Source: Burkholderia ambifaria AMMD (GTDB lineage: Bacteria; Pseudomonadota; Gammaproteobacteria; Burkholderiales; Burkholderiaceae). Taken from it: DNA of 64,000 bases. The position numbers were made by a program, and so were the translations under genes. The notes beneath the pieces were generated by a model that saw only the letters and a list, made by a program, of their open reading frames with translations, was not told where the DNA came from and did no database searches. The DNA is taken from contig NC_008391.1 in assembly GCF_000203915.1 (NCBI RefSeq), positions 310,001-374,000 of the forward strand, read 5' to 3'. Positions 42,074 through 51,440 of the stretch are shown here, piece by piece (position 1 is the first letter of the stretch; the number at the start of each line of letters is the position of its first letter).

Positions 42074-43138
42074 CTACCGCGTCAACTCCGTAAACCCCTC
42101 CATCAACCGCTCGACGTCAGCCGCCTGAATCGCCCCCATCGTCGAGATCCGGAACAGTTCCTTCGACAACCCGCCTTGCCCCGCATAGATCACGAAGCCG
42201 CGTGCCTTCAACCCGTCATGCAGCGTCTCGTACGTGACACCTTGCGGCAGCCGATACGCACGCAGCACGACCGACGAAGCGCCTTCCGGCAGCACGAGCG
42301 ACATCCCGCGCGCCGCCAGCCCGGCCTGCGCCTGATCAGCGAGCGCCTTGTAGTGCGCATGCCGCGCACGCCAGCCACCGGCTTCGTCGAACTCGCGCAG
42401 TGCCTCGACGAGCGCATAGTAAGCATGCACGGAAGGCGTAAACGGCGTATTCCGCTGATCCTGCAGCTTCGCGAGACGACCGAGATCGAGGTAGTACGTA
42501 CGGCTCGCGGCCTTCGCGAGCGCGCTACGGCGCACGATCACGAACGCGGCCCCCGGCACACCGTGCAGGCACTTGTTCGCAGTAGCGGCAACAGCATCGA
42601 TCACACCGCCGGCAAAGTCGATCGCCTCAGCCCCAAAGCTGCTCACACCATCGACGAGCATCTTCACACCGCGCGCACGGCATACGTCGGCGATCTTACC
42701 GAGATCATTCAGCCGGCCCGTCGTCGTTTCATGATGAATCACCGCGACGTGCGAATACCCACCCGCATCGAGCTTGGCACCAATCTGCGCGGGATCAGGC
42801 GCCTGCATCCACTCATGCTTCAGCACATCATGCGCGATCCCGTACTGCGTCGCGATCTGCGCGATGCGCTCGCCGTACACGCCATTCTCGATCACGAGCA
42901 GCTTGCCGTCCTGCGGCACGAGCGCCGCGATCATGCTTTCGACGGCGGCGGTGCCCGAGCCCGTCATCAGCACGGCGGCCCATTCCGCCGGATCGAGCTC
43001 GTACGCGGCGACGAGGCGCGCACGCGCTTCATCCTGCAGATCGAAAAACTCGCTTTCGCGATGGCACAGGTCGGGTTGCAGCAGGCTGCGGCGCACGCGT
43101 TCGGTGAGCGTGACCGGGCCGGGGTTCAGCAGCAGCAT
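42074..43138 (-). CDS. phnW: 2-aminoethylphosphonate--pyruvate transaminase
   Basis: The 354-aa PLP enzyme of aminotransferase class V has the family start LLLNPGPVTLTERVRRSLLQ, LMTGSGTAAVES, DGVSSFGAEAIDF and the PLP lysine in ATANKCLHGVPG. It interconverts 2-aminoethylphosphonate and phosphonoacetaldehyde with pyruvate/alanine. Beside PEP mutase and phosphonopyruvate decarboxylase, and with no phosphonatase (phnX) nearby, it should run in the biosynthetic direction. Its start overlaps the decarboxylase stop by one base (TGATG). It is the last gene before the terminator. Confidence 0.94.
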   Translation of the reverse strand: MLLLNPGPVTLTERVRRSLLQPDLCHRESEFFDLQDEARARLVAAYELDPAEWAAVLMTGSGTAAVESMIAALVPQDGKLLVIENGVYGERIAQIATQYGIAHDVLKHEWMQAPDPAQIGAKLDAGGYSHVAVIHHETTTGRLNDLGKIADVCRARGVKMLVDGVSSFGAEAIDFAGGVIDAVAATANKCLHGVPGAAFVIVRRSALAKAASRTYYLDLGRLAKLQDQRNTPFTPSVHAYYALVEALREFDEAGGWRARHAHYKALADQAQAGLAARGMSLVLPEGASSVVLRAYRLPQGVTYETLHDGLKARGFVIYAGQGGLSKELFRISTMGAIQAADVERLMEGFTELTR

Positions 43139-44319
43139 CAATGAGCTCCTTCGGCGTGGGCTTCGGCCTGTGCGGCGCCGATATGCCGCATCAGGCGGGT
43201 CTTGACCTCGACCGGCGTGACGGTCGGGCGGGGCAGGCCGTCGGGCACGCCCGTGCGGATCGCAACGCGCACGAACTGCGTACCGTTGCTCTGCGCAGCG
43301 AGCGTTGCATCGAGCACGTCGAGCGTGTCGCCTTCGACGGCGGACGCGTAGCCGCACGCGGCCGCGACACCCGCGAACGACACATGCTGCGACACGGTCG
43401 CCTGGCCGCCCGTCGATTCGTGCGCGCCGTTGTCGAGCAGCACGTGCGTAAGGTTGGACGGCCCGTAGGTGCCGAGCGTCGCGAACACGCCCATGCGCAT
43501 CAGCGCAGCGCCGTCGCCGTCGATGGCCACCACGCGCAGGTCGGGACGCGCGAGCGCGAGCCCCAGCGCGAGCGGCGTCACGCAACCCATCGAGCCGACC
43601 ATGTACAACTGGTTCGGACGATCGTCGATCGCATAGAGTTCGCGGCCGCAGAAGCCGGTCGACGCGAGCACGACGGTCGAATCGACCGGCGTGTGCGCGA
43701 TTACGCGTTGCAGCGCGTCGTGGCGGGTCGGCCACGCGGCGGGTGATTCAGCACGTGCCGCGGACTGGGCGGCGACATGCGCGCGCGGCGTCGCCGCCGG
43801 GTTCGCCTTCAGTTCATACGGCGCGACGCTGCCTTTCTGCATCACGAGCGCATACGGGCGGCCGGTTGCGTCCATGTGCGCGATCGCGCGGTCGAGCGCC
43901 GGGCCGACCTGTTCGGGGTCGGTCGGGAACGTCTCCCACGGGATCTCCATCGTGTCGAGCATGGCGGGCGTAATCGGCCCCATCAGCGCGTGCTGCGGCT
44001 CGTCGGACACGCCCGGCTGGCCGCGCCACGTGACGATCAGCAACTGCGGCAGCCGGAACGTCCAGGTCAGCGACGTGAGCGGGCTCACCGCATTGCCGAG
44101 CCCGGAGTTCTGCATCATCGCGATCCCGCGCTTGCCGCCAAGCGTGGCGCCAGCGATCAGCGCGACCGCGTCGCCTTCGTTCGCGGCCGACAGGTAGTGC
44201 AGCGTCGGGTCCTGCAGCACGTAATTGATGAACGGCGTCAGGTACGAGCAGGGCACGCCCGCGTACCAGTCGAAACCGCGCTCGCGCGCGGCCTCGACGA
44301 ACTGGGCCGCTTCGATCAT
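43138..44319 (-). CDS. ppd: Phosphonopyruvate decarboxylase
   Basis: The 393-aa thiamine-diphosphate enzyme has the pyrimidine-side region [20 protein letters not shown] and the [15 protein letters not shown] substrate motif of this family. The ThDP/Mg motif is [16 protein letters not shown] followed by [11 protein letters not shown]. It decarboxylates phosphonopyruvate to phosphonoacetaldehyde, the step that drives PEP mutase forward. The stop of the PEP mutase fusion overlaps its start by 4 nt, so the first three biosynthetic steps are translationally linked. Confidence 0.95.
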
Positions 44320-46001
44320 TGCGCGCCCCCGTTGCCGGTGCTCGGCTCGGACAGCGGCGTCTGGCCGTGCGCGAAGTCGCCCGCGCGGCGGAAGTCTTCG
44401 AGATCGTTGACGCCGCGCCAGTGGCCGTGCACGTACTGCACCTCGATCTTCTCGCCGGCGGCGATCAGTTCGTTGAGCAGCGACGGGATATCGAGCGTGT
44501 CGAAATCAGGACGTGCCTGCAGCGTCGCGAGCATCGCCTTCAGGCGGTCGACGCCTGCGCCGCGCACGTTCAACAGACCGATCCAGCGGCCGTGCGGCGT
44601 GCCTGCGGCGACGTCGCTCGATACGCGTTGCAGGTAGGTTTTCTGGCCGAACAGGCCGCGGTCGTCGGCGGCCGAGCAAAGCGCGAAATCGCGCACGCTC
44701 TGGTTGGTCTCCGTGAGCGACGAGTCGACGACGACGCTGAACTCGGCCTCGCTCTCCGCGAGGTCGCGCACGATGTAGCTGCGGAACAGCAGGTCACCGT
44801 ACGAGATCACGGTGTCGCCGGTCAGACGTTCGGCCGCGCACGCGAGCGATGCGAGCTCGCCCGTCTGCGCGTGACGCTCGTTGACGACGAGCTTGATGCC
44901 CGACGTGTCGATCGCGTCGGCGCGATAGCCGCCGACCACGGTGATGTCGTTCACGCCGTGCGTCTTGAAGCCGTCGACGAGCCAGCGCAGCAGCGGCTTG
45001 CCGGCGACCGGCAGCATGACCTTGGGCTTATCTTCGGTCACGGCCTCGAGTCCCTTGCCGCGGCTCGCGGCGAGCACGATCGCGGCGTTCGACGCGCGCG
45101 ACGACGACGACAGGTAGATACGCTCGGCTGCCGAGTATTCGTCGGCGTCCTGCAGGCGGAAGATCTCGTTGACGGACGCGACGCGGTCCTCGACGTTGAT
45201 CAGCGTCTCGTTTTCATGAATCTCGCGTGCGACGGCCTGCATCGCCGATGCCGATGCGCGGATCAGGTGGTTCGCCCAGATCACGGTGCTGATGCCGGCC
45301 TGGCGGAACACGTCGGTCGGCGTGCTGTAGTACTTGGTCGGCACGATCACGAGCGGCGCCTTGCCGCTCCATTCGCGTGCGAACTGGAGAATTTCGTCCG
45401 GGCGCGACAGCTTGCTGTGGATCAGGATCGCGTCCGCACCGGCTTCCGCATACGCGTTCGCGCGGCGCAGCGCCTCGTCCATCCCCCAGCCCGCGATCAG
45501 CGCCTCGACGCGCGCGACGATCGAGAAGTCGGAGTCGCTCTGCGAATCCTTGCCGGCCTTGATCTTGCCGCAGAACTCGTCGATTTCCGCGAGCGGCTGG
45601 CGTTCGCCGCCGATGAAGCTGTTCGTCTTCGGGAATTGTTTATCCTCGATGCACACGCCGGCGATGCCGCGCTGCTCGAGCTTCTTCACGAGGCGGCGCA
45701 CGTTGTTGAAGTTGCCGTAGCCGGTGTCGCCGTCGAGCAGGATCGGCAGGTCGCTTGCGTCAGCCATGAACTCGAGCACGTCGACGACCTGCGTCCAGCT
45801 CGCTTCGTTGTTGTCGCGCACGCCGAACTGCGCGGAGATCGCGAGGCCCGATGCCCAGATCCCCTTGAAGCCTGCTTCGCGGACGATCCGTGCGGACAGG
45901 CCGTTGTGCGCTTCCATCAGGAATTCGAGTTCGTTGCTGACGAGCATGCGGCGCAGGCGTGCGCTGCGCGATTCGGAGAAGTTGGGTTCGCGAGCGTTCA
46001 T
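44316..46001 (-). CDS. PEP mutase fused to a phosphonate nucleotidyltransferase
   Basis: The protein has 561 aa. Residues 1 to about 290 are phosphoenolpyruvate mutase (PepM/AepX): [11 protein letters not shown] (88-98) and the diagnostic [11 protein letters not shown] at 119-129, where EDKxxxKxNS marks true PEP mutase. Residues about 305-561 are a nucleotidyltransferase ([20 protein letters not shown], then [12 protein letters not shown]), the PntC-type module that loads aminoethylphosphonate with CTP. The first part makes phosphonopyruvate from PEP; the second likely makes CMP-aminoethylphosphonate. The start [11 protein letters not shown] overlaps the separate nucleotidyltransferase stop by 4 nt. 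The in-frame upstream ATG is inside that gene. Confidence 0.94.
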
Positions 46002-46765
46002 CGTGCGGCTCCTGCCGTGGTGCGTTGAATCAGGGGAAGAATGTCTTGTGTCGCGCGTGCGACGTCGTTCGGGAAGTCGATCTCGATCCACGGCGAACCC
46101 GTGACGTCGGCGACGTCGAACGAATGGCCGCCTTCGAGCAGCAGGTCACGCACGGCTTCCTCGTGCGGCATGTTCGCGCGGCCGCTGTCGACGTAGCCGG
46201 CGACGATTTTCGCGAGGCGGCGCGCGGTGCCTTCGGTGAAGCGGAAGAAGCCGACCGATTCGCCGATCGTGTCGTAGTCGAGGTCGACCGCGAGCTGCTT
46301 GCGCAACTCGACGGGCACGCCGTTCTTCAGGCACAGCTTGACGGGCTCGTCGCCGGCTTCGAAGTCGCGATCGATCAGCAGGCGGTCGACCGCCTTGTCC
46401 GAGTCGGCCACCAGCGCGTGCAGGATGTTCTCGTCGTAGAGCACGTCGGCGTCCATCAGCAGCACGTCGCCGCCGCGCGTCATCGCATCGGCGACGGTGT
46501 GCACGGTCAGCACGCTGCCGAGGTCGTAGCGCTCGTTGATCACGATCTCGGCGGTGCGGCCGAGGCGCTTCAATTCCTGCTCGACCTTCTCGGACTGGAA
46601 GCCGAGCCCGAGCACGATTTCATCGACGCCCGCGGCGTCGAGTACGCGCAGATGGCGCTCGAGCAGCGACACGTCGTCGAAGCGTAGCAGGCACTTCGGG
46701 TATTGCGCCTCGGGCGGTTGTTGCAGGCGCAAGCCGAGGCCTGCCGCAAGAATGATGGCTCGCAT
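45998..46765 (-). CDS. NTP_transferase family sugar-phosphate or phosphocholine-type nucleotidyltransferase
   Basis: The 255-aa protein has a Rossmann-like NTP_transferase start ([32 protein letters not shown]) and [14 protein letters not shown] with the metal Asp. The sequence is closer to LicC/phosphocholine cytidylyltransferase-type enzymes than to sugar ones. It is the second nucleotidyltransferase in the operon, distinct from the PEP mutase fusion partner. It may activate the head group or a lipid or alcohol acceptor. The start at 46765 has GGAG upstream; it overlaps the fusion gene by 4 nt. Confidence 0.85.
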
Positions 46766-46801
46766 GGGTTCTCCAACCAAAAAGCCGGCGGATCTGAACG
46801 A

Positions 46802-47803
46802 TCAGTCGGCGAGAGGCTGCGGCGCATGGCGCCGCTGCCAGTTTCTTTCACTGAAATGCAGATAGAGCAGGCCGGGCAGGCCGAGCGCGAGTTCGCGCGC
46901 GCGCTTCGCGAGCGACAGCGCGAGCGCCGCGTCGGGCGGCAGGCCGACCAGCGGGGCGAGCAGCAGGTAACCGCCTTCCTGTGCCCCGAGCGAGCCCGGG
47001 ATCGCGAACGCCGCACCGCGAATCGCCTGGCCGACGCTCTCGAGCAGCAGCGCGTCGAGCCAGCTGACCGGGTGCCCGAGGAAGTGCAGCGCGAGCCACA
47101 CTTCCGCGGTGCCGGCGATCCAGCCGGCGAGGCTCAACGCGAAGGTCTTCGCGACCTTCGCACGATCGCGGTACAGCCCGGCGACCGCGTTGTCGATCGC
47201 ATCCGCGCGGGTCGCCAGCGACGACCAGTCGCGCGGGCCGAGCAGCTTCGACGCGAGACGCATCCCGCGGCCGAACAGCCCGCGCCGCTGCGCCGCGTAG
47301 AACGCGACGGCGAGGGCGCCGAGCACGCCGGTGGCGATCAGCGCCGGCGTGCGCAGGTGCGCGACTGAATCGTGGGTCGCATACAGGCTGAACGCGGCGA
47401 TGCCGATCAGCGCGAACGCCATCTGCGCGAGCGCCTGCATCGTCGTGCCGACGGTCATCGCGGCGGCCGCATCGGCCATCCGCGTGCCGCGCTGCGCGAG
47501 GTAGCGCACCATCAGCACCGGGCCGCCGATCTGCCCGGCGGGCAGCAGGCTGTTCACGGATTCGCCGACCCAGCGCGCACGCAGCGCATTGCCGAGCTCG
47601 GCGGCCGGTTGGCCGCGGCGGAACATCACGGACACCGCGAACGCGTCGATCACGAGCGGCACGACGTGGAACGCCGCGACGAGCGCGAGGCCCCAGCCGG
47701 CCGCGAGGAGCGTCGACGCGACCGCGCCGACGCCCTGCCACGCGAGCAGGGCGATGAAGAGTGCCGTTCCGAGGGACAGCAGGATCAGGCCGGCGCGTGT
47801 CAT
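46802..47803 (-). CDS. HpnL/LPG-synthase-type flippase-like membrane protein
   Basis: The 333-aa protein has about eight TM segments and the flippase-like/LPG synthase TM signature: ESVNSLLPAGQIGGPVLMVR (conserved PAGQ-G-P) and GQAIRGAAFAIPGSLGAQEG. Members include HpnL and MprF-like flippases that move lipids between leaflets. In this operon it could flip a phosphonolipid made by the neighbouring CDP-alcohol transferase. It overlaps the upstream oxygenase gene by 4 nt (ATGA). Transport of a phosphonolipid is inference from context. Confidence 0.87.
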   Translation of the reverse strand: MTRAGLILLSLGTALFIALLAWQGVGAVASTLLAAGWGLALVAAFHVVPLVIDAFAVSVMFRRGQPAAELGNALRARWVGESVNSLLPAGQIGGPVLMVRYLAQRGTRMADAAAAMTVGTTMQALAQMAFALIGIAAFSLYATHDSVAHLRTPALIATGVLGALAVAFYAAQRRGLFGRGMRLASKLLGPRDWSSLATRADAIDNAVAGLYRDRAKVAKTFALSLAGWIAGTAEVWLALHFLGHPVSWLDALLLESVGQAIRGAAFAIPGSLGAQEGGYLLLAPLVGLPPDAALALSLAKRARELALGLPGLLYLHFSERNWQRRHAPQPLAD

Positions 47804-48609
47804 GACCCGCTCGACCGTCGCGTGGCCAGCTGCTTGAACACCTGGCGGAAACCGAAATACGCGATCGCGTCCTTCATGTTCGAGATGAAGCGCTTCCACG
47901 GCCGCATGCCGGGGTTGGTCACGTATTCGAAAGTCAGCGACACGCGCGTCTCGTTCTGGCCGAGCGGCGTGATCCGGTGGCGCAGCTTGTCGCCGTCGAA
48001 CAGCACGATGCCGCCGTCGGCGATCTGCACGGAACCCGGTTCGTCGGGCACGTCCGGATTGCGCGTATGCAGTTCGTAGTCGAGCCGGCACGACGATTCG
48101 TCGATCACGCCGATCAGCAGCGTATAGCGGCGGCCGTCGTAGTACGACGTGTCGTAGTGCCAGCCGATGTGGTCGCCCGGCTTCGTGTAGTAATACAGCG
48201 CGTATGCGTGCGGATCGTTCTCCGGCGACACCATCAGCTTGTCGCCCGTGATCTTCTCGAGGAAGCCGATCAGCGCCTTCGAGCGGTACAGTTCCGCGAT
48301 GTACGGTGCCTTTTCGTCGATCGTGTGCCGGCTCACGCTGCCGCCCTGCTTGTGGCCGGGCAGGTAATTGCGGTTCAGGCCGGGCTGCAGCGCGCGGGCC
48401 GCGGCCGCGAGTTTCGCGTGCGCGTCGGGCGGCAGGAATGCGTCCAGATACAGGAACGACCCCTGGCGCGTGTAGTCGCTGCGCAGGCGGTCGAGGTCGA
48501 GTTGGCCGACACAGCCGGCCACGGTGCGATCGGGATCGGCCGCCGCCGCGCGCGCAGGCGCGGGGCGTGCCGGGCTCAGCACGGAGTCGTCGCGCGTGCT
48601 AGAAGTCAT
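47800..48609 (-). CDS. 2-oxoglutarate/Fe(II)-dependent oxygenase
   Basis: The 269-aa protein has the HxD Fe ligands in GWHYDTSYYDGRRYTLL and a distal His followed by an Arg-type ligand region (LRHRITPLGQNETRVSLTFEY). This is the pattern of the 2OG-Fe(II) oxygenase/HalD family (prolyl-4-hydroxylase-like). It hydroxylates or otherwise oxidises a substrate, probably the phosphonate head group or a lipid intermediate. The start MTSSTRDDSVL overlaps the CDP-alcohol transferase stop by 4 nt. A long shadow frame upstream is not used. Confidence 0.88.
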   Translation of the reverse strand: MTSSTRDDSVLSPARPAPARAAAADPDRTVAGCVGQLDLDRLRSDYTRQGSFLYLDAFLPPDAHAKLAAAARALQPGLNRNYLPGHKQGGSVSRHTIDEKAPYIAELYRSKALIGFLEKITGDKLMVSPENDPHAYALYYYTKPGDHIGWHYDTSYYDGRRYTLLIGVIDESSCRLDYELHTRNPDVPDEPGSVQIADGGIVLFDGDKLRHRITPLGQNETRVSLTFEYVTNPGMRPWKRFISNMKDAIAYFGFRQVFKQLATRRSSGS

Positions 48610-49286
48610 TTGGAAGCCTGGATTTCGGTTGAATTCTGCGGGGTGTTGCCGCGGCGCACGATGCGCCACCAGTCGATCACGACCCACGCGGCGAACAGCG
48701 GGGCGCCGATCGACGCCGCGAGCAGGAACGGCTGGACGCTGTCGGTGAGCGTCACGAGCGGCAGCAGGTAGAGCACGTCTTCCGTCTCGAAGCCGCCGGC
48801 GAACGCCTGCTTGGTGCCGGCCTTGCCGGCGACCGACTCGATCCGCATGCGCAGGAAGAAGATCAGCGCGACGGCACCGCCGGCCAGCGCACCGAGCAGC
48901 ACCGGCGACGCGGCCATCTGGCCGCCCTGGGCGACGATGCCGACGCCCATGCTGACGAACAGCGCGACCGTCACGAGCGCGTCGGCCGCGAGGTCGTAAA
49001 AGTGACCGATCTTGCTGGACTTGCCGCTGATGCGCGCGAGTTCGCCGTCGGTGTGGTCGACGAAGTTCGACAGCACGATCAGGAATGCGCCTGCGTTGCT
49101 CCAGCCGAAGCCGCCTTGCGCCAGGCACCAGGCGCCGGCGAGGCCGATCAGCAGACGAAGGGTAGTGAGGTGATTCGGGGTGACCGGCGTGTCGATCAGC
49201 GGCCGGACGAGCGCGCGCGCGAGCCGCGCATCCCAAGTGCGTGGCAGCGGCGGTTCCGGGTGTTTGGCGGTTTTTCTTTGGTCCAT
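48606..49286 (-). CDS. CDP-alcohol phosphatidyltransferase family protein
   Basis: The 226-aa inner-membrane enzyme has the complete CDP-alcohol phosphotransferase motif D-G-x2-A-R-x8-G-x3-D-x3-D, visible as DGELARISGKSSKIGHFYDL plus AAD, and about five TM segments. These enzymes transfer a phosphoalcohol, or here plausibly a phosphonate, from a CMP-activated donor to a lipid alcohol. With two nucleotidyltransferases and PEP mutase in the same operon, it suggests phosphonolipid formation. It is the first gene; an upstream in-frame ATG at 49373 is an alternative start, and the region ahead is AT-rich. Confidence 0.9.
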   Translation of the reverse strand: MDQRKTAKHPEPPLPRTWDARLARALVRPLIDTPVTPNHLTTLRLLIGLAGAWCLAQGGFGWSNAGAFLIVLSNFVDHTDGELARISGKSSKIGHFYDLAADALVTVALFVSMGVGIVAQGGQMAASPVLLGALAGGAVALIFFLRMRIESVAGKAGTKQAFAGGFETEDVLYLLPLVTLTDSVQPFLLAASIGAPLFAAWVVIDWWRIVRRGNTPQNSTEIQASK

Positions 49287-49925
49287 CGGCGAAATATATA
49301 CGGAATTGTAACTTGTTGCTTTTTCTTCGATCAATGTCCTGACATCCGGGAGTGTTAACGCGATTCCGCGCATCGGCCGGTTACGCGCCGGATGCGCGAA
49401 ACGGCGTTCGCGCACCCGGGCCATATGTAATCCAGTGTGGTTCGCATGGCGCGACTGTCAAGGGCCCCCGGGCCTCGCCTAGAGCGCTCCGCGGCGCGGG
49501 CGCGCGTCCCCGGGTTGATGTGCATCAGGCCCGAAAAAGCGGCGCCGGGCGACAATTGGCCGCGTTGATCTTTGATCGGCCGCGGCATATTGATTCCCTG
49601 CGTTCTGGCAGTCAATCCGGAAAGGTCACGGTCGACTGATGTTCGGTCGGTCGTAATCCGGAGGCGGCATGTTGGCGATTCGCTTTCGCGCACCTTTCGG
49701 GTGCATTCGGCAGATTGTTCCGCCTGTCACAGAACGGCCATTCGATACCCGGCGCATTCAGTAAGTATCTTTTGCATTCAGCGGACATTTCGCGGCGATG
49801 GCCTCTGCGATACTCCGACCGTGCCTGTGGTGCCGGCCGCCCCTCGCGGCCCCAAGGGCTTCGCGTCGCTCAGGAGACACCCCCCGCGACGTCAACGACA
49901 GACCAAAAGCGTCAGATATATAGCC
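49287..49925. other. Divergent intergenic region without a gene
   Basis: About 640 nt between the phosphonate operon and the CoA-transferase gene. The left end (49287-49345) is AT-rich with a TATATA and likely holds the phosphonate operon promoter. The rest has no supported gene, RNA or clear operator. Confidence 0.5.
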
Positions 49926-51440
49926 ATGTCTTCATCACGCATCCTCGCTCCCGCCCTGCGTTCGCTCGTCCGCACCGCCGACGAAGCCGCCGCGCTGATC
50001 CGTCCCGGCATGACCGTCGCGATGAGCGGCTTCACCGGCTCGGGTTATCCGAAGGCCGTGCCGGCCGCGCTCGCCGCCCACATCGAGGCCGCCCACGCGC
50101 GCGGCGAGGACTTCCGGATCAACGTGCTGACGGGCGCGTCGACCGCGCCGGAACTCGACGGCGCGCTCGCCCGCACCAACGGCATCTCGATGCGCCTGCC
50201 GTACCAGTCCGACCCGACGCTGCGCGACAAGATCAATAGCGGCGAAGTCGACTACCAGGACGTCCACCTGAGCCACGTCGCGCAATACGCGTGGTTCGGG
50301 CTGTACGGCGACCTCGACGTCGCGATCGTCGAAGTCGCGGGCATCCGCGAGGACGGGCTGCTGATTCCGTCCGCATCGATCGGCAACAACAAGACGTGGC
50401 TCGAGCAGGCGAAGCACGTGATCCTCGAAGTCAACTCGCGCCAGCCGCTCGGCCTCGACGGGATGCACGACGTCTATTACGGCACCGCGCTGCCGCCGCA
50501 CCGCAAGCCGATTCCGCTGACCAAAAGCGACGACCGGATCGGCGAGCCGTACCTGCGCTGCCCGGCCGACAAGATCGTCGCGATCGTCGAGACCGACGCG
50601 CCGGACCGCAGCAACGCGTTCTCCGCGCCGGACGCCACGTCCAAGCAGATCGCGCTGCAACTGATCGATTTCCTGCGCCACGAAGTGAAGCGCGGCCGTC
50701 TGCCGGAAAACCTGCTGCCGCTGCAGTCGGGGGTCGGCAACATCACGAACGCGGTGCTCGCGGAACTGAGCTCGGCCGGCTTCTCGAACCTGACCGCGTA
50801 CACCGAGGTGATCCAGGACGGCATGCTCGACCTGCTCGACGACGGCACGCTGAGCTTCGCGTCGGCCACCGCGCTGTCGCTGAGCCCGGCCGCCGTACAG
50901 CGCTTCGCCGACGAGATCGCGACGTTCCGCGAAAAAATCCTGCTGCGCCCTCAGGAGATCAGCAACCATCCGGAACTCGTGCGCCGCCTCGGCTGCATCG
51001 CGATGAACGGGATGATCGAGGCCGACATCTACGGCAACGTGAACTCGACGCACGTGATGGGCACGAAGATCCAGAACGGCATCGGCGGCTCGGGCGACTT
51101 CGCGCGCAACGGCTACCTGTCGTGCTTCATGTCGGCCAGCACCGCGAAGGGCGGCGCGATCTCGCGGATCGTGCCGATGGCGAGCCACGTCGACCATACC
51201 GAGCACGACGTCGCGGTGGTCGTCACCGAGCAGGGGCTCGCCGATCTGCGCGGCCTGTCGCCGAAGCAGCGGGCGCGCAAGATCATCGCGACCTGCGCGC
51301 ATCCCGATTACCGTCCGATGCTCGAGGACTACTTCGAGCGCGCGTCGCGCGAGAGCTTCGGCAAGCACACGCCGCACCTGCTCGCCGAGGCGCTGTCGTG
51401 GCACGAACGCTATGTGCGCACCGGGACGATGAAGGCCTGA
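49926..51440 (+). CDS. Succinyl-CoA:acetate CoA-transferase (acetyl-CoA hydrolase family)
   Basis: The 504-aa class I CoA-transferase of the AarC/Cat1 type has Glu294 in AYTEVIQDG, the position of the catalytic Glu in Acetobacter AarC. It also has the family motifs SGVGNITNAVLAEL and NGIGGSGDFARNG. It moves CoA between succinyl-CoA and acetate, bypassing succinyl-CoA synthetase or detoxifying acetate. The start MSSSRILAPALRSLVR was chosen because it matches family length. It stands alone, divergent from the phosphonate operon and followed by a MerR gene 200 nt later. No AarC-type operon partners are visible. Confidence 0.93.
   Translation: MSSSRILAPALRSLVRTADEAAALIRPGMTVAMSGFTGSGYPKAVPAALAAHIEAAHARGEDFRINVLTGASTAPELDGALARTNGISMRLPYQSDPTLRDKINSGEVDYQDVHLSHVAQYAWFGLYGDLDVAIVEVAGIREDGLLIPSASIGNNKTWLEQAKHVILEVNSRQPLGLDGMHDVYYGTALPPHRKPIPLTKSDDRIGEPYLRCPADKIVAIVETDAPDRSNAFSAPDATSKQIALQLIDFLRHEVKRGRLPENLLPLQSGVGNITNAVLAELSSAGFSNLTAYTEVIQDGMLDLLDDGTLSFASATALSLSPAAVQRFADEIATFREKILLRPQEISNHPELVRRLGCIAMNGMIEADIYGNVNSTHVMGTKIQNGIGGSGDFARNGYLSCFMSASTAKGGAISRIVPMASHVDHTEHDVAVVVTEQGLADLRGLSPKQRARKIIATCAHPDYRPMLEDYFERASRESFGKHTPHLLAEALSWHERYVRTGTMKA

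Follow-up and report, generated by a model that had tools for sequence, protein, structure and literature searches.

A seven-gene phosphonate operon of Burkholderia ambifaria and its possible role in building hopanoid head groups

Where does the phosphonate that a seven-gene operon of Burkholderia ambifaria AMMD seems designed to make end up? The operon occupies 49286-42074 on the minus strand of the window studied here, i.e. the whole 64,000-nt stretch at positions 310,001-374,000 of NC_008391.1 (the genome comprises 7.5 Mb in 4 contigs). An earlier note on this DNA had given the same coordinates, which are confirmed, together with a gene list that proved incomplete: a seventh gene at 48609-47800, encoding a 2-oxoglutarate- and Fe(II)-dependent (2OG-Fe(II)) oxygenase between the transferase and HpnL, had been missed. 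Read from 5' to 3', the genes encode a cytidine diphosphate (CDP)-alcohol phosphotransferase, the 2OG-Fe(II) oxygenase, HpnL, a stand-alone nucleotidyltransferase, a phosphoenolpyruvate (PEP) mutase fusion, phosphonopyruvate decarboxylase and 2-aminoethylphosphonate (AEP) transaminase. The first two junctions are overlaps of 4 nt each, the third is a gap of 36 nt (HpnL to the stand-alone nucleotidyltransferase), and the last three are overlaps of 4, 4 and 1 nt; the chain of 1-4-nt overlaps described before holds for these four 4-nt overlaps and one 1-nt overlap, and is interrupted by the gap.

On balance, we favor the reading that the operon, which is conserved in Burkholderia, serves to attach a phosphonate head group, an uncommon structure with a carbon-phosphorus bond, to hopanoids (lipids that in bacteria correspond to cholesterol) and not to an ordinary membrane lipid. 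AEP would be formed, activated, transferred to the alcohol of an extended hopanoid and moved by HpnL. The sequences of the three AEP-forming enzymes and of the cytidylyltransferase-like enzyme, together with the motifs of the transferase and the oxygenase, form the basis of the pathway, while gene neighborhood and co-occurrence probably link it to hopanoids. From these observations we infer the acceptor, the target of hydroxylation, the order of the steps and the flippase role of HpnL. A lipid of some kind is the likely product, as others have already predicted.

Probable synthesis and activation of aminoethylphosphonate

The three enzymes said in the earlier note to give AEP all score above curated NCBIfam cut-offs (paired bit scores are given hereafter as score/curated cut-off): PEP mutase with a C-terminal NTP_transf_3 domain (44316-46001, 561 amino acids; TIGR02320, 407/320), phosphonopyruvate decarboxylase (43138-44319, 393 amino acids; TIGR03297, 484/312) and AEP transaminase (42074-43138, 354 amino acids; TIGR03301, 396/361). 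The nearest PDB entry to the PEP mutase is 1m1b (E 3e-128), and the EDKxxxxxNS motif is present in 104/104 loci; in this and the other per-locus motif counts, a few genomes appear more than once because they were fetched twice. The transaminase scores above the cut-off of TIGR03301, the PhnW-AepZ model, and below that of the PhnW model TIGR02326 (266/401). Judged by these matches, the operon very likely encodes AEP synthesis. AEP breakdown was rejected as its purpose, since PEP mutase, the decarboxylase and a transaminase of the PhnW-AepZ type form AEP; the earlier note saw no phosphonatase or C-P lyase gene, a negative for which no search across the whole genome was made.

The domains of the two nucleotidyltransferases reported before were likewise found, one fused to PEP mutase and one stand-alone. 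The stand-alone enzyme (45998-46765, 255 amino acids), a proposed CTP:phosphonate cytidylyltransferase, has Treponema PntC (6pd1, E 1e-11) as its best solved relative. Both Gly, the Arg and the PK of the PntC consensus GXG(T/S)RX4-8PK are kept, with Leu at the T/S place in 75/79 loci. In Treponema PntC, alanine at Arg15, Lys25 or Lys153 left less than 10% of the activity in the experiments described (PMC6697681). The counterparts of the first two, the consensus Arg and Lys, are conserved in 77 and 79 of the 79 stand-alone loci, respectively, and Lys153 aligns with a lysine in an alignment read by eye. AEP would likely be activated by this PntC-like enzyme as CMP-AEP, the cytidine monophosphate (CMP) conjugate.

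The domain fused to PEP mutase (C-terminal, 44316-45100) reads SRGKG at the consensus place and keeps PK in 103/103 loci, with the consensus Arg in 0/103, where Gly (100 loci) or Asn (3 loci) takes its place; an invariant Arg lies three residues earlier. The missing Arg counts against PntC identity and not against putative CTP binding, and a shifted active site, another substrate or a structural role are candidate readings of the domain. With the consensus Arg absent from all 103 loci, the presence of two working cytidylyltransferases in the operon is doubtful. Against PHROGs, the PEP mutase fusion showed only a weak match, of unknown function.

Proposed transfer, hydroxylation and transport of the head group

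The CDP-alcohol phosphotransferase (48606-49286, 226 amino acids; PF01066, 54/22) has the intact motif DxxDGxxAR...GxxxDxxxD that the earlier note had described, and the motif is unchanged in the 71/71 loci covering it. Among named models, archaetidylinositol phosphate synthase and PIP synthase matched best, both far below their cut-offs, and PgsA and PssA matched weakly.

The oxygenase (47800-48609, 269 amino acids; PF23169 HalD, 52/26) belongs to the HalD/BesD family. Its GWHYD segment aligns with GWHWG of the halogenases 7u6h and 9oev in PDB alignments, and H151, D153, H211 and R222 are invariant in 39/39 aligned sequences, hand-picked from 120 relatives listed (P0001-P0120). A hallmark of BesD/HalD halogenases is that Gly or Ala replaces the Asp that binds iron. 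Here this Asp (of HYD) is retained, also in 73/73 loci, so that the protein has the hydroxylase form, an HxD...H facial triad within a HalD-type domain. Because the iron-binding Asp of HxD is kept, the enzyme should hydroxylate rather than halogenate, and a halogenase identity was rejected on the same ground despite public names. Many of the 120 listed relatives are publicly named 'HalD/BesD family halogenase', a name that looks wrong for the group.

Relatives of the oxygenase use free amino acids as substrates, and lysine is mentioned in PDB names. Furthermore, in the loci L164 and L165 the oxygenase gene begins a run of oxygenase, nucleotidyltransferase and PEP mutase. For these reasons, the use of free amino acids and the oxygenase-first run, AEP would be the favored substrate, with hydroxylation of the hopanoid side chain as the alternative. 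A hydroxylated head group has been proposed before for Burkholderia phosphonolipids, after Yu et al. 2013, in the form of 2-hydroxy-phosphonoacetate and with TauD/TfdA enzymes, as outlined in the part of PMC12723261 available.

The HpnL family membrane protein (46802-47803, 333 amino acids; TIGR03476, 373/196) bears out the earlier assignment and is a proposed flippase. The genome encodes two HpnL proteins, both above the TIGR03476 cut-off: the operon copy and one directly after HpnI-HpnJ-HpnK. According to the sections available of PMC12583986, HpnI, HpnJ and HpnK make the cyclitol ether of bacteriohopanetetrol, and the function of hpnA, hpnB and hpnL is not established. That an HpnL gene accompanies each of these two sets of head-group genes suggests that HpnL has a part in transport which depends on the head group.

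Collectively, the steps may be arranged as follows. PEP would be turned into phosphonopyruvate by the mutase, decarboxylated to phosphonoacetaldehyde and transaminated to AEP, which the stand-alone PntC-like enzyme would convert to CMP-AEP. The CDP-alcohol phosphotransferase would then place the head group on an extended hopanoid that offers a free alcohol; the simplest candidate is the terminal OH of bacteriohopanetetrol. Hydroxylation by the HalD/BesD-type enzyme would turn AEP into 1-hydroxy-AEP or affect the hopanoid side chain, HpnL would bring the product across the inner membrane, and HpnN, encoded elsewhere in the genome, would carry it onward. We put forward only tentatively, as a fuller proposal that may well fail in part, that an AEP- or 1-hydroxy-AEP-headed bacteriohopanetetrol is an undescribed lipid class encoded in more than half of 299 Burkholderiaceae genomes, and that HpnL is a flippase for head-group-tailored hopanoids, with one paralogue for each head-group operon here. 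The [M+H]+ calculated for AEP-bacteriohopanetetrol (C37H68NO6P) is 654.486 and that for its hydroxy form 670.481, with head-group ions at m/z 126.031 and 142.026. If the hopanoid reading is true, it would add a new hopanoid class, whose head group phosphate-based methods would miss, and the lipid would occur widely across a large family whose members include soil, plant and opportunistic bacteria. CMP-phosphonates would also gain a defined fate and HpnL a suggested role, and the finding would bear on hopanoids both as membrane-ordering lipids and as molecular fossils.

Genomic company of the operon and alternative acceptors

The distribution was followed in 65 genomes of the genus, 299 of Burkholderiaceae, 369 of the class and 339 of the phylum. 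The oxygenase was found in 64/65 genus genomes. At E-value thresholds of up to 1e-100 for the PEP mutase fusion, 1e-30 for the transferase and 1e-40 for the oxygenase, these were present in 174, 179 and 179 of the 299 family genomes, respectively. The transferase accompanies the fusion in 174/174 genomes and occurs in 5/179 without it; two of these five (G220 and G302) seem to be disrupted, and the same holds for G194, which has a partial oxygenase. Among the named loci, which are the best 80 of 511 relatives, 34 have all seven genes in the same order, a recurrence beyond chance. A further 45/80 carry the AEP half and lack the transferase, the oxygenase and HpnL, six of them with the stand-alone nucleotidyltransferase and one (L090) without a transaminase match, and the last of the 80 is a 3.4-kb contig. 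In the genus g20, the transferase, oxygenase, HpnL and nucleotidyltransferase genes stand together at a separate site in 12 genomes fetched around the transferase. Since the two separate halves keep company across genomes, one pathway is suggested. Both the transferase and the AEP half were also seen for Cupriavidus metallidurans and Paraburkholderia xenovorans LB400.

The link to hopanoids was seen at two distances. In the class, six genomes besides this one carry a relative of the oxygenase. Four of the six relatives, from three families and with 49-52% identity, lie with PEP mutase and a PntC-like gene, and for three of these four, hopanoid genes (among shc, hpnA, hpnB, hpnH and hpnN) occur in the same stretch; G390 and G585 (oxygenase identity of about 34%) have no other operon gene nearby. 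When proteins of L163 and L164 were tested, HpnB, HpnH, HpnA (twice) and HpnN (TIGR03480) scored above cut-offs, and HpnG, the HpnL of L164 (142 vs 196 for TIGR03476) and the HpnN of L164 on NF052374 scored below. The locus L162 gave tblastn matches to HpnB, HpnH, dxs, HpnA, HpnN and shc, and the stretch of L165, which ends after 9 kb, has an HpnL-like gene only. In L164, the consecutive genes for HpnN, the transferase and HpnA share 4 nt at each junction. L162 (G664) has two transferase copies, at about 9929 and 13743, one beside the oxygenase and the other between HpnA and HpnN.

Within Burkholderiaceae, linkage was seen in 5 of the 11 operon-carrying genera fetched: HpnN alone adjoins the operon in g7 and g15, and dxs, hpnH, hpnA, hpnB and shc do so as well in g8, g11 and g16. 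The first 20 loci fetched included five linked ones (G079, G108, G165, G150 and G241). Later picks were chosen for shc on the same contig (G156 and G114), for new genera (G078, G070 and G113) or as extra checks (G154, G140 and G284); the first five of these are linked and the three extra checks unlinked. HpnN was verified by two models in four linked genomes and the own genome, and shc and HpnA were verified in L196. In Mycetohabitans rhizoxinica HKI 454 (NC_014718.1), an example probably not independent of the G156 locus, the genome's own annotation places hpnD, shc, a glycosyltransferase, hpnA, hpnH, ispH, an MMPL transporter and dxs, followed by all seven genes, within about 23 kb. In a quick tree built from 46 oxygenase segments, with the four class relatives as its root, a single switch between the linked and the unlinked state suffices, and the linkage therefore appears to be ancestral, with one loss. 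Support for the decisive branch is 83, the root joins long branches, and the linked and unlinked labels were assigned by us.

Co-occurrence points the same way. Squalene-hopene cyclase is encoded in 214/299 family genomes (213 above cut-off), namely in 178/179 genomes with the transferase vs 36/120 without it; the Fisher value of 6e-44 is far too strong, as shared ancestry and reduced genomes inflate the association.

Several observations, beyond this inflation, weigh against a hopanoid acceptor. No chemistry was found for a hopanoid phosphonate or for a glycerolipid phosphonate. The 36 genomes just mentioned have a cyclase without the transferase, and one transferase genome, the draft G040 in about 140 contigs, gave no cyclase match. 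No hopanoid gene was seen in the stretches fetched from g1 (this genus), g3, g10, g17, g20 and g25, nor beside the operon in any of the 80 named loci, and shc of the own genome is about 1.6 Mb from the operon on the same contig. The linkage, where it exists, may be a single inherited arrangement. Three of the g20 genomes (G125, G258 and G277), all with a cyclase match, carry the full four-gene transferase module and no PEP mutase above the TIGR02320 cut-off, and remote transferase relatives (31-40% identity) lack phosphonate genes on the stretches seen. These relatives came from the phylum search, in which the transferase was found in 11 of the 339 genomes: five Burkholderiaceae, G957 and five of family f202. 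G957 has two copies at 40% identity on contigs of 7.4 and 12.5 kb, with no operon or hopanoid matches. The f202 relatives are 31-33% identical, and only that of G798 (L190) has shc, HpnN, HpnA and HpnL adjoining, with no PEP mutase match. Finally, the published prediction for the cluster is a phosphonolipid, with no mention of hopanoids in the text available (PMC5987646).

Two side observations concern hopanoid genes elsewhere. In L190, shc, HpnG, HpnN, HpnA and HpnL are followed by the remote CDP-alcohol phosphotransferase (31%). Judged by eye, genes for a nucleotidyltransferase and an inositol phosphate synthase lie nearby, and the group may be a further head-group set that adjoins hopanoid genes. 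The own genome has two squalene-hopene cyclase matches, one of them at C3:1966333, near HpnN.

The strongest alternative acceptor is diacylglycerol. The transferase would then work like ethanolamine phosphotransferase to give AEP- or hydroxy-AEP-diacylglycerol, HpnL would flip a glycerolipid, and the hopanoid neighbors would reflect a shared membrane programme. Glycerolipids are common substrates of CDP-alcohol phosphotransferases, and the weak matches to PIP synthase, PgsA and PssA fit this alternative, as does the presentation of a homologous Burkholderia cluster as phosphonolipid synthesis in the available part of PMC5987646. However, diacylglycerol predicts neither the hopanoid neighbors in five genera and three relatives of other families nor the HpnL identity or the cyclase in 178/179 transferase genomes, and we regard it as rather unlikely. 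The phosphonolipid product of the earlier note is upheld by sequence in a broad sense, while its AEP-diacylglycerol form is not favored, as neighborhoods and co-occurrence point to hopanoids. In keeping with the note's remark that such a lipid is not established in Burkholderia, no structure was found; its prediction, on the other hand, is already in print, as seen in portions of PMC5987646 and PMC12723261.

Less probable still, the four-gene module might furnish a hopanoid with another CDP- or CMP-activated alcohol or phosphonate, e.g. phosphoethanolamine or a scavenged phosphonate, with the AEP genes as one of several suppliers. The three genomes with the module and no PEP mutase would fit, and so would the separation of the AEP half from transferase, oxygenase and HpnL in 45 of the 80 named loci, yet the presence of the transferase in every one of the 174 fusion genomes and the absence of the fusion from only five of 179 transferase genomes make this improbable. 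That the phosphonate ends on a surface polysaccharide, as the text available of PMC6697681 describes for AEP on cell-surface glycans of other bacteria, is very improbable, as none of the seven genes encodes a glycosyltransferase, LicD or a polymerase; HpnB, a hopanoid-associated glycosyltransferase, adjoins the operon in some relatives.

The best-matching named proteins are from Burkholderia. The operon is flanked by a divergent succinyl-CoA:acetate CoA-transferase and by a glutathione S-transferase pointing at its end. The CoA-transferase (49572-51440, NF053853 above cut-off), outside the proposed pathway, adjoins the operon in 33/34 complete named loci, less the loci from Trinickia, Cupriavidus and a few further ones. 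The one strong terminator claimed earlier corresponds to a hairpin of 9 pairs with a loop of 4 and a T tail (42045-42024, minus strand), directly after the transaminase gene, although such sites are not above chance across the window (5 vs a shuffle mean of 4.2, sd 2.1). Promoter-like sites across the window are not above chance either (1 vs 0.6 expected).

Comparison with known systems

Clusters of Burkholderia and a lichen Nostoc have been drawn with gene labels that match this operon, namely CDP-alcohol phosphatidyltransferase, 2OG-Fe(II) oxidase, NTP transferase, pepM, ppd, AEPT and hpnL (PMC5987646). They are read there as phosphonolipid clusters, the homologous Burkholderia one after Yu et al. 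2013 (Fig. 7 legend), and the stem 'hopan' is absent from the main text in its available form. The Pnt pathway shares PEP mutase, decarboxylase, transaminase and a PntC-like cytidylyltransferase, and the NTP_transf_3-PEP mutase fusion is common there, whereas the clusters studied contain LicD-like proteins or glycosyltransferases, and 'hopan' does not occur in the available text of that paper either (PMC6697681). The hpnI-hpnJ-hpnK-hpnL operon for the bacteriohopanetetrol cyclitol ether, also present in this genome, resembles the operon as a tailoring set with HpnL and differs in its glycosyl and radical-SAM chemistry, without phosphonate in the sections available (PMC12583986). The flavophos cluster of Burkholderia represents a different phosphonate pathway (PMC12871164). 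Of the genomes in one reported set that combine genes for making phosphonates with genes for consuming them, nearly half were Burkholderiaceae, as far as the text available shows (PMC8931226).

The nearest precedent for a hopanoid-phosphonate link is the hybrid clusters of Roseomonas, in which a hopene cyclase gene is linked to PEP mutase and for which the authors propose an 'undiscovered terpene-phosphonate' (PMC8776678). They come from another family and were compared by description only, and no transferase, oxygenase or HpnL is named in the portion available. This was the only such link found in the open-licence literature, and a report elsewhere may exist. Invertebrate ceramide aminoethylphosphonate, as described in the source text available, is also an AEP-headed membrane lipid, with a ceramide backbone instead of a triterpenoid. 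In conclusion, neither the operon nor the phosphonolipid idea is new, and the likely hopanoid acceptor is what the present analysis adds.

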